The translations under genes and the position numbers were made by a program. 64,000 bases of DNA from an endosymbiont of Galathealinum brachiosum (GTDB lineage Bacteria > Pseudomonadota > Gammaproteobacteria > SZUA-229). Under the pieces are notes generated by a model. It did not search any database. It was not told where the DNA came from and saw only the letters and a list, made by a program, of their open reading frames with translations. The stretch covers positions 11,475-75,474 of the forward strand of contig QFXC01000007.1 of the NCBI GenBank assembly GCA_003349885.1. Direction: 5' to 3'. Below, in pieces: positions 27,328 through 30,428 of the stretch (the stretch's first letter is position 1; each line of letters starts with the position of its first letter).

Positions 27328-28551
27328 TTAATTATTTTCACGATAATGCTTTAAGAAACGATCCATTTTTTCCATCACGCCATCCATATCTTCTCTGCGT
27401 GATAAAAATACTAATCTAAAGTGATCTGTTTTCGGCCAGTTAAACGCTGTGCCCTGAACCAGTAACACTTTTTCCTGTTGTAACAACTGTAGTATGAATT
27501 TTTCGTCGTCATCAATTTTATAAATTTCAGGGTCAAGTTTTGCAAATAAATACAATGCGCCTTTAGGCCTTACACAACCGACACCCTCTAGCTGGTTCAG
27601 CATTTTCCAGCTGTAATCCATCTGTTCGTATAAACGCCCACCGGGTGCAACCAGCTCATTAATACTCTGATGTCCTCCCAGTGAAGTTTGAATAGCATGC
27701 TGACCCGGCACATTTGAGCACAGGCGCATAGATGCCAGTAACTCCATACCTCCTATAAAATCACGAGCATGATCTTTAGCACCACTAATCACCATCCAGC
27801 CCGCTCGAAAACCCGCTACTCGATAGGCTTTTGATAAACCATTAAAACTGATCATTAATAAATCATCAGCCATTGATGCTAAAGCAATATGCTCTGCATC
27901 GTCATAAATAATTTTATCGTAAATCTCATCCGCAAAAACAATCAGTTCATGTTTACGTGCGATTTCGATTAATGCCTCTAAGGTTTGTTTTGTATAGACA
28001 GCACCGGTTGGATTATTCGGATTAATAATCACAATACCCCGGGTTTTAGAGGTAATTTTACTTTCAATATCGGCTATATCAGGTTGCCAGTCATTCTCTT
28101 CATCACAAAGGTAATGCACAGGTTTACCACCGGATAAACTCACCGCTGCTGTCCATAATGGATAATCTGGAGCAGGGATTAACATTTCATCTTCGTTATT
28201 CAATAACGCCTGCATCGACATAACAATTAATTCACTGACACCATTACCAATGAAAATATCATCAACATCAACATCTTCGGGAAAACCCTTTTCCTGACAA
28301 TATTGCATAACCGCTTTACGGGCGTAATACACCCCTTTGGAATCAGAATACCCCTGACAGTTAACCAGATTACGCATCACATCCTGAATAATTTCATCAG
28401 GTGCACACAGGCCAAAAGGCGCCGGGTTACCAATATTTAACTTGGTAATACGATGGCCTTCTTCTTCAAGTCGTTTTGCTTCCTGTAATACAGGGCCACG
28501 AATGTCGTAACAAACCTGATCAAGTTTGTCGGATTTTAATATGGTGGTCAT
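27328..28551 (-). CDS. alaA: PLP-dependent aminotransferase AlaA-like (glutamate-pyruvate transaminase)
   Basis: A 407-residue class I/II aminotransferase. Close match to the AlaA (YfbQ) group: DKLDQVCYDIRGPVLQEAKRL, TKLNIGNPAPFG, IINPNNPTGAVY, and the PLP-lysine segment SFNGLSKAYRVAGFRAGWM. It would make alanine from pyruvate and glutamate. It is divergent from the small 2-hydroxyacid-dehydrogenase-like gene. Confidence 0.92.
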   Translation of the reverse strand: MTTILKSDKLDQVCYDIRGPVLQEAKRLEEEGHRITKLNIGNPAPFGLCAPDEIIQDVMRNLVNCQGYSDSKGVYYARKAVMQYCQEKGFPEDVDVDDIFIGNGVSELIVMSMQALLNNEDEMLIPAPDYPLWTAAVSLSGGKPVHYLCDEENDWQPDIADIESKITSKTRGIVIINPNNPTGAVYTKQTLEALIEIARKHELIVFADEIYDKIIYDDAEHIALASMADDLLMISFNGLSKAYRVAGFRAGWMVISGAKDHARDFIGGMELLASMRLCSNVPGQHAIQTSLGGHQSINELVAPGGRLYEQMDYSWKMLNQLEGVGCVRPKGALYLFAKLDPEIYKIDDDEKFILQLLQQEKVLLVQGTAFNWPKTDHFRLVFLSRREDMDGVMEKMDRFLKHYRENN

Positions 28552-28626
28552 AAAATTATTAATTGTTCAAAGGTATTTAAGTTATGCCATCATACAAGTT
28601 GCAAATTTATATATAAAGTGATTTTA

Positions 28627-29016
28627 ATGAATATAGTATTAGTCGACAGTGGACAGCTCTCAGGCATGCCTGAGTTTCCTCCCGTTAACCTGCCAAAATT
28701 CGCCTGGTTAGAGTATGTCGACTTAACCGAAGATGGCGTTGATGATCGCTGCTGGCGTGCAGACATTATTATAAGTGTCAATACACCAATTAACGCAAAA
28801 GTTATTAGTGAAACGTTTAAGCTGAAATTATTAATCGCTGCGGGTGATAAAAGCGACCATATAGATTTAGCTGCAGCTAAAAAACGTGGTATTCCCGTTT
28901 GCAATATTCCTGGCTTAACGGGTGATACCCCTGAAAATGCACGGAAAATTGCCGATCAAATTATTGATACAATACATGCCTGGTTAGATGAGAAACCGAT
29001 AAATTTAATTGCTTAA
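28627..29016 (+). CDS. Reduced D-2-hydroxyacid dehydrogenase-like protein lacking the NAD-binding domain
   Basis: About 129 residues. The first 95 match the N-terminal half of the substrate-binding domain of D-isomer 2-hydroxyacid dehydrogenases: MNIVLVDSGQL, WRADIIISVNTPINAKVI, LKLLIAAGDKSDHIDLAAAKKRGIPVCNIPG. The rest (TPENARKIADQIIDTIHAWL) resembles the family's C-terminal return helix. The Rossmann domain and the catalytic Arg, Glu and His are missing, so dehydrogenase activity is not expected. I chose ATG 28627 (MNIVLVDSG) over the upstream in-frame GTG at 28618. It ends just before the Fur-like box. Confidence 0.75.
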   Translation: MNIVLVDSGQLSGMPEFPPVNLPKFAWLEYVDLTEDGVDDRCWRADIIISVNTPINAKVISETFKLKLLIAAGDKSDHIDLAAAKKRGIPVCNIPGLTGDTPENARKIADQIIDTIHAWLDEKPINLIA

Positions 29017-29046
29017 AAACTCTAAATGAGTATAATTCTCATTTAG
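29009..29046 (+). promoter_or_regulatory. Promoter overlapped by a Fur-like box
   Basis: TTGCTT (29009-29014) and a perfect TATAAT (29031-29036) are separated by 16 nt. The -10 sits inside a perfect 9-bp inverted repeat, CTAAATGAG/CTCATTTAG (29022-29030, 29038-29046). Its core TGAGTAT-A-ATTCTCA (29027-29041) fits the 7-1-7 Fur box TGATAAT-N-ATTATCA at 11 of 14 positions, and the TGAGAAT variant at 13 of 14. Predicted TSS near 29043. Confidence 0.7.
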
Positions 29047-29069
29047 AACAACCCTTAAAGAGTTAAAAC

Positions 29070-29258
29070 ATGAACGACCTGATAGAAACATTACTCGACT
29101 GCCCCAATCTGAGCCTGAGATTACTAGACTCCAAAACTGGCCGTTCTGTAAAAACAGTAAACCATGATCAGCTTCAAAAAATGCTAGTAGATCAACAGGT
29201 TAACTGCTCTAAAGACTGTGGAAATATGAGCTGTCAGAATCGCTCAATTGACGATTAA
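29070..29258 (+). CDS. Small Cys-containing protein, predicted iron/Fur-regulated
   Basis: A 62-residue protein I do not recognise. It has an acidic/leucine-rich N-terminus (MNDLIETLLDCPNLSLRLLD), a central SKTGRSVKTVNHDQLQKML segment, and four Cys: Cys10, and Cys47, Cys51 and Cys56 (CSKDCGNMSC) near the C-terminus, suggestive of metal or redox chemistry. No signal peptide. It is not HemP or Bfd by motif. AAAGAG precedes the ATG, and a Fur-overlapped promoter ends 23 nt upstream. The good promoter and ribosome-binding site support a real gene. Confidence 0.7.
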   Translation: MNDLIETLLDCPNLSLRLLDSKTGRSVKTVNHDQLQKMLVDQQVNCSKDCGNMSCQNRSIDD

Positions 29259-29274
29259 AAGTGAAGTTTTGTTA

Positions 29275-29300
29275 GTAGGCGTTAGCTAACAAATATAGCG
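29275..29300. repeat. Truncated GTAGGCGTTAGC-type repeat
   Basis: The sequence GTAGGCGTTAGCT here matches the reverse complement of 62222-62234, the end of a larger palindromic element. Only one arm is visible, between the small Cys protein and aroG. Confidence 0.4.
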
Positions 29301-29372
29301 CGATGCGCAGCAAGTAGTAAAAACTCACAACAGGGGTGGAGCCGTAAAAGGCCGAATTCAACCCCAGACATT

Positions 29373-30428
29373 TTAACCCTTACGCCTATCTCGTACTGCT
29401 TCAGCTAATTCTCTTAACAATACTTCTGTTTCATTCCATGCAATACAGGCATCGGTGATACTCTGCCCATAAGTCAGGTCTTCAATATTTTCGACATTCT
29501 GACGCCCTGCTACCAGGTGACTTTCCAGCATCACACCCATAATATCGCCATTGCCAGCTTTAACCTGCCCCGCAACATCACGACATACATCCAGTTGACG
29601 GTTATGGTCTTTTTCACTGTTTGCATGAGAACAATCAATCATCAGTTTTGTATTTTGCTCACTGCTCTGCAATTGATCGACTGCGTCTTTAACACTCTTT
29701 GCATCATAATTAGGTGTTTTACCACCGCGCAAAATAATATGACAATCCTCATTACCAGTGGTTGAGAAAATGGCAGAATGCCCCTGTTTGGTTAATGACA
29801 TAAATACGTGAGGGCGAGAAGCAGCCTGAATTGCATCAACAGCAACTTTCAATCCACCATCGGTACCATTTTTAAAACCAACAGGACAGGACAAACCGGA
29901 TGCCAGTTCACGATGCCCCTGACTTTCAGTGGTTCGCGCACCGATTGCACCCCAGCTAACCAGATCAGAAACATACTGTGGGCTGATTAGATCCAGATAC
30001 TCGGTTCCTGCAGGTATTCCCATATCGGCAATATCCAGCAACAAACTACGCGCCTGACGCAAACCATGATTAATATTAAAACTGTCATCAAGATGTGGAT
30101 CGTTAATCAAACCTTTCCAGCCAACGGTTGTGCGTGGTTTTTCAAAATAAATACGCATAACAATACAAAGATCGTCAGCTAACTCATCAATTAAAGGCTT
30201 TAAAAGATTGGCGTATTCACGACCGGCCTTTGTATCATGAATTGAACAGGGTCCAACAATAACCAGCAAACGATCACTTTCACCCTGCAATATGTCATGA
30301 ATTGCCTGACGCGCACTGTGAACAGTGTCAGATGCGGCATCCGTCAGTGGATATTCCCGGTGTAGTTCTTCAGGTGGTAATACTTCCTGTAAGCCGGAAA
30401 TGCGTAAGTCGTCAGTTTTATACTTCAT
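29373..30428 (-). CDS. aroG: 3-deoxy-7-phosphoheptulonate synthase (class I DAHP synthase)
   Basis: A 351-residue class I DAHP synthase, first step of the shikimate pathway (PEP + erythrose 4-phosphate). Conserved: LLVIVGPCSIHD, FEKPRTTVGWKGLINDPHLD, WGAIGARTTESQ, ASGLSCPVGFKNGTDGG, IILRGGKTPNYD, IDCSHANS and MLESHL. It is closest to E. coli AroG (Phe-sensitive), but the feedback amino acid cannot be read with certainty. It is transcribed alone, with the HAD gene 80 nt downstream on the same strand. Confidence 0.95.
   Translation of the reverse strand: MKYKTDDLRISGLQEVLPPEELHREYPLTDAASDTVHSARQAIHDILQGESDRLLVIVGPCSIHDTKAGREYANLLKPLIDELADDLCIVMRIYFEKPRTTVGWKGLINDPHLDDSFNINHGLRQARSLLLDIADMGIPAGTEYLDLISPQYVSDLVSWGAIGARTTESQGHRELASGLSCPVGFKNGTDGGLKVAVDAIQAASRPHVFMSLTKQGHSAIFSTTGNEDCHIILRGGKTPNYDAKSVKDAVDQLQSSEQNTKLMIDCSHANSEKDHNRQLDVCRDVAGQVKAGNGDIMGVMLESHLVAGRQNVENIEDLTYGQSITDACIAWNETEVLLRELAEAVRDRRKG

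Follow-up and report, generated by a model that had tools for sequence, protein, structure and literature searches.

One gene in the window (the whole 64-kb stretch of endosymbiont DNA that we analysed) is, by all sequence signs, a Fur-boxed and iron-responsive gene, and the 62-residue protein that it encodes is very likely a remote relative of PA4570 from Pseudomonas aeruginosa. The sequence-only reading had suggested an iron-responsive small-protein gene at this position, and the gene proved to be both real and conserved. The features of the locus are given in Table 1.

Table 1. Features of the small gene and of its predicted control region, in window coordinates.
Feature	Position	Strand	Remarks
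-35-like hexamer TTGCTT	29009..29014	+	16-bp spacer to the -10; shares bases with the upstream gene's end
Perfect 10-bp dyad centred on TATAATT, predicted extended Fur-type operator	29021..29047	.	core 21-mer conserved
19-bp Fur-box match AATGAGTATAATTCTCATT	29025..29043	+	1 mismatch; unique in the window
-10 TATAAT within the operator	29031..29036	+	invariant in 5/6 loci
Small protein of 62 aa with Cys11/46/50/55, remote relative of the PA4570 family	29070..29258	+	ORF with ATG start
Residues 1-42, module common with the PA4570 family (a helix, a beta hairpin and the beginning of a long helix)	29070..29195	+	hhalign 94.8%; AF2
C-terminal cysteine cluster C46-x3-C50-x4-C55	29205..29234	+	kept in 5/6 orthologues; modelled as disordered

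The control region had been described as a perfect 9-bp dyad over a TATAAT -10 element. The dyad is present, and its arms are 10 bp long, 1 bp more than claimed: TCTAAATGAG (29021-29030) pairs perfectly with CTCATTTAGA (29038-29047) around TATAATT (29031-29037). The reported one-base departure from the Fur form TGAGAAT-N-ATTCTCA was also borne out, with the 19-mer at 29025-29043 carrying a single mismatch to AATGAGAATNATTCTCATT (18/19 to the IUPAC consensus). This was the sole site in the window with three or fewer mismatches, where shuffles gave an expectation of 0.09, and the 15-mer TGAGTATAATTCTCA has a single exact occurrence across the whole 3.77-Mb genome. The base that departs from TGAGAAT-N-ATTCTCA converts AATAAT into the TATAAT of the -10. 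Its invariance in five loci is as expected if one site serves both Fur and sigma-70, and we infer that this single off-consensus base is dual-use. Because the -10 and the operator share bases, repression by Fur would be direct. The -35-like hexamer agrees with the -35 consensus at just 3/6 positions, and a generic promoter scan returned no promoter at 29009-29036. At the corresponding position, TTGnTT with equal spacing was found in all four genus members that have the gene, and the more distant genome G009 has TTGGCG with 17-bp spacing. Rfam gave no match over 28500-29500.

We found the 21-mer AAATGAGTATAATTCTCATTT (29024-29044) to be letter-identical ahead of the gene in five of the six genomes with an orthologue. 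This identity holds even though synonymous change in the gene approaches saturation, with dS between genus members running from 0.88 to beyond estimate. The box is absent at the sixth locus, that of the G013 orthologue. Exactly one FUR-family protein is encoded in the genome, a Fur equivalog scoring 190 bits against a cut-off of 146. Outside the window, the same genome carries a perfect Fur box, TGATAATAATTATCA (G000 contig 13, 318490-318504; L022), which ends ~62 bp ahead of the start of feoA in a feoA-feoB pair, where FeoB was named by family match and FeoA by size and position only. For work on Fur of this organism, the feoA-feoB box is a useful positive control. Across the genome, the looser 7-1-7 pattern with one mismatch occurred at 61 places compared with 24 for a reversed control pattern, and the genome therefore probably holds real Fur sites. 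Taken together, the conserved box, the lone Fur equivalog and the perfect feoA-feoB box support the predicted Fur control that had been claimed, and we regard such control of the gene as almost certain.

The gene upstream of the operator, at 28627-29016 on the forward strand, encodes a 129-residue protein consisting of a D-2-hydroxyacid dehydrogenase catalytic domain without the NAD-binding domain (PF00389 only). It is possibly a non-enzymatic relic or a regulator. Several genera of the taxonomic family have kept this fragment gene; G004 has an interrupted copy, none was found in G001, and five genomes (G006, G007, G018, G025 and G087) carry it but not the small gene. Because it is interrupted in one genome, not found in another and present alone in five, we rejected it as a partner of the small protein. 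In G006, G018, G025 and G007 (L070, L071, L069 and L072), similar DNA comes after the fragment gene, with neither the box nor the small gene, and in G009 (L006) a ~250-bp stretch of box and gene sits between. Read by eye, the box and the small gene look like a cassette that was gained or lost. There were no iron genes among the window gene's own neighbours, and the genome gave two ferritin-domain matches only, both weak (32 and 27 bits).

Orthologues of the 62-residue protein were found in six genomes among 96 relatives searched: four of the five in the genus, the endosymbiont's own included, and G009 and G013, which belong to other genera of the same taxonomic family. In the contig scan, the three same-genus matches were the MAGs Gammaproteobacteria OB6, N3S-Bin_1 and SZUA-229. 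Pairwise dN/dS was 0.05-0.14 where computable, indicating purifying selection on the open reading frame. The four cysteines with C-x3-C-x4-C spacing are as the sequence-only reading had stated. Three cysteines within 10 residues also arose in 18% of shuffles of equal composition; clustering is not rare by itself, so the evidence lies in conservation rather than in the count. That reading had proposed a check for homologues with conserved cysteines, and these exist: five of the six orthologues retain Cys11, 46, 50 and 55 while the surrounding tail residues vary. In the G013 orthologue (L007, 1102-1272, reverse strand) the gene persists, and the box and Cys46/50/55 are both lost. This one case suggests that the Fur box and the cysteines go together. 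AF2 modelled helices at residues 3-9 and 32-48 and strands at 16-19 and 26-30; the model, built from four sequences, is poor (pLDDT 66, pTM 0.42), with pLDDT below 50 from residue 45 onward. A fold search with this model against the PDB returned no match at E <=0.001.

The protein had been said to belong to no known family, a statement that has to be revised. In NCBIfam, the PA4570 family NF050178 was the sole family at E up to 10, with an E-value of 0.00099. The score of 19.3 bits falls far below the curated cut-off of 100, so we file the window protein as a remote relative only and not as a member of the PA4570 family. The most distant orthologues, G009 and G013, had no NCBIfam match at E up to 1. 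When an HMM was built from 13 PA4570-like proteins, gathered with NF050178's own model and not with the window protein, all six window-family members outranked all 2000 shuffled decoys. With hhalign, the comparison to this set gave 94.8% (P 5.6e-8), residues 1-42 aligning collinearly on 1-42. A second, more divergent set (g2, 13 proteins) gave 16.5%, with decoys scoring higher, and the joint set gave 86%. From the HMM and hhalign results, we conclude that the window protein shares the N-terminal module of PA4570. Pfam matches to eukaryotic families (COE1_DBD, 0.038; COA2, 0.13) were at chance level and below cut-offs, and PDB sequence matches of 15-19 residues (Tako8, WDR5 beta-propeller blades) were judged chance, no stretch passing alone. 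A search of the class-wide sample of 369 genomes with the window-family alignment matched 20 genomes at E up to 0.1, two of which were G000 and G001. The other 18 matches (E 0.0025 to 0.095) mostly lay within long frames or contained stops, and we took them for chance; accordingly, a window-type protein was not found outside its own family in this sample.

Available excerpts of the literature describe PA4570 as a 74-residue hypothetical protein that is co-transcribed with the small RNA rsmW (PMC4950607). They report a canonical Fur site and induction when iron is scarce (PMC13277308), a 22-fold decrease once iron is available with a Fur box after Ochsner 2002 (PMC5145850), and less PA4570 protein at high iron (PMC8534726). 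In airway mucus, PA4570 was up 19-fold, and the growth index there was 1.58 for a transposon mutant and 2.46 for its parent (PMC4597187). PA4570 and sodM fall in one correlated gene set (PMC10473638). The excerpts on PA4570, Fur and iron gave no molecular function for PA4570. The window protein resembles PA4570 in its small size, in residues 1-42 and in the upstream Fur box. In contrast, PA4570-like proteins continue with a helical half where the window protein has a short C-x3-C-x4-C tail, the gene neighbourhood differs, and no rsmW-like RNA was seen downstream of the window gene (no Rfam match).

Among the 369 genomes of the class-wide Gammaproteobacteria sample, 38 matched the PA4570 model at E up to 0.01, with a single match above the cut-off. 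We compared 39 loci, which are 38 of the 39 places from this search plus G091, with G184:C23 left out. A Fur-like 19-mer (at least 16/19) lay within 250 bp upstream at 33 of the 39 loci and in 8 of 1002 control windows drawn from the same DNA stretches. The six loci lacking such a site were L111, L112, L115, L140, L141 and L143, and L112 had only 30 bp of upstream sequence. A cysteine cluster of any kind occurs in 17 of 32 PA4570-like proteins and is missing from 15; judging from these sequences, the cysteine tail is a lineage-specific feature and not a family-wide one. An equivalog-level PA4570 relative (L035, 114.6 bits) has Cys27 and Cys55 only. Some matches cover the N-terminal half of PA4570 alone (e.g. 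G253, G231), with boxes present. Others cover the C-terminal half alone, for example L132 and L134 (G209 and G319; 60 residues) and L130 and L131 (G394 and G179), and these also lie behind Fur boxes. The PA4570-like family thus seems modular, with N and C halves found apart. G001, which carries a window-type orthologue, also encodes a weak PA4570-like C-half protein with several cysteines (L016, 1531-1782, forward strand; E 0.034), whose best upstream Fur-like site is ~850 bp away.

The 115 neighbouring ORFs of PA4570-like genes included nine TonB receptors, six ferritins, four DUF2325 proteins, two ExbB and one FecCD, in a tally without L136 and L143, which had no target frame. For control loci (95 ORFs, in a set that includes ten loci sharing a dehydrogenase), TonB receptors and ferritins were not among the 25 of 113 families listed. 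TonB receptors and ferritins are over-represented beside PA4570-like genes. By phmmer to two genes taken as TonB receptors, TonB-type genes were present at 12 of the 39 loci. Ferritins were present at six, leaving 33 without a ferritin within ~4 kb. Of those six loci, L111, L115 and L141 had no Fur box. In G127, a Fur box, the PA4570-like gene, a bacterioferritin and a second bacterioferritin follow one another on one strand, and in G250 a non-heme ferritin comes after the PA4570-like gene on the same strand. The link to ferritin, seen at a minority of loci, is suggestive. DUF2325, which was met among the neighbours at loci L107-L145, is another small family without a characterised member and may be part of the Fur regulon.

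We propose that the gene is expressed from a Fur-repressed promoter and that its product, a small cytosolic PA4570-superfamily protein, acts as a partner in the iron economy and has a metal-binding tail; we hold this proposal, as a whole, with moderate confidence. With iron plentiful, Fe(II)-Fur would sit on 29024-29044, over the -10, and block RNA polymerase; with iron short, Fur would come off and the 62-residue protein would be made. Its N-terminal 42 residues would bind an iron-economy partner, for which the neighbourhoods of its relatives offer two candidates, a ferritin or bacterioferritin store and TonB-receptor uptake. That the partner is an iron store or an uptake system is a tentative suggestion. 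The C-x3-C-x4-C tail, with Cys11 or a ligand from the partner, would retain or transfer a metal ion, be it iron, zinc or an Fe-S cluster. Metal binding by the tail is plausible, and we give it an even chance. The sequence-only reading, which had suggested a metal-binding or chaperone-like protein, was premature on metal binding. A broader reading, which we consider unlikely, would make the PA4570-like proteins a modular, Fur-controlled superfamily throughout the Gammaproteobacteria in which hairpin and helical modules occur jointly or singly and cysteine tails were gained and lost, serving as partners of ferritins or of TonB uptake in a Bfd-like role without Bfd kinship. In the window lineage, a metal-binding cysteine tail would then have replaced the helical half.

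The site itself could belong to another regulator, or the dyad could be a chance hairpin where the upstream gene ends: the dyad exceeds the Fur core, the box is off by one base, and the Fur site is a prediction. Chance is excluded by the identity across five loci. Moreover, the box is intact where the upstream gene is interrupted (G004) or not found (G001), and a transcript from this promoter would lack part of the hairpin, since the -10 lies inside the dyad. Fur-like sites are also the rule ahead of PA4570-like genes, and we judge a site for anything but Fur to be very unlikely. Acceptance of Fur control leaves room for other roles of the protein. The hairpin-helix module could act as an anti-adaptor or inhibitor of an iron-using enzyme, sparing iron, with cysteines that are redox-active or incidental and bind no metal. 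The region common with PA4570 leaves the tail outside, and the two cysteines of L035 and the 15 proteins lacking the cluster fit this idea; it is opposed by the retention of Cys11/46/50/55 in five of six orthologues amid varying tail residues and, in a single case, by the loss of Cys46/50/55 along with the box in G013. We view iron sparing as a possibility, though a doubtful one.

Bfd (Fer2_BFD, PF04324) is a protein of ~60 residues with four cysteines in the pattern C-x-C ... C-x2-C and is controlled by iron starvation. The window protein shares the size, the number of cysteines and, with its Fur box, the predicted control, so it could be a functional analogue that docks on ferritin and aids iron release, and the gene orders in G127 and G250 and the six ferritin-bearing loci are in keeping with such a role. 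However, it has no Fer2_BFD match, its spacing of C-x34-C-x3-C-x4-C differs, and a Bfd-type 97-residue frame already exists elsewhere in the genome (L151). Because ferritin loci are a minority and half of them boxless, the window gene has no iron neighbours and the genome's ferritin matches are weak, we consider a Bfd-like role improbable. An RNA-binding role of the CsrA/Rsm type would suit the size of the protein, but neither Pfam nor NCBIfam gave a CsrA match at E up to 10, and the predicted H-E-E-H order is unlike that of the CsrA fold. The resemblance in print concerns PA4570, which in the excerpted report is 16-17% identical to RsmA and RsmN yet failed to complement an rsmA deletion (PMC4950607). 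We find this role hardly credible.

PA4570 is one of the genes that respond strongly to iron in P. aeruginosa, with 19- and 22-fold changes in the excerpts of two papers. The orphan PA4570 now becomes part of a widespread family that is nearly always Fur-boxed and often found beside TonB receptors or ferritins, which makes its role testable. With its conserved cysteines, the window protein adds a short natural variant on which the question of metal is easy to test.
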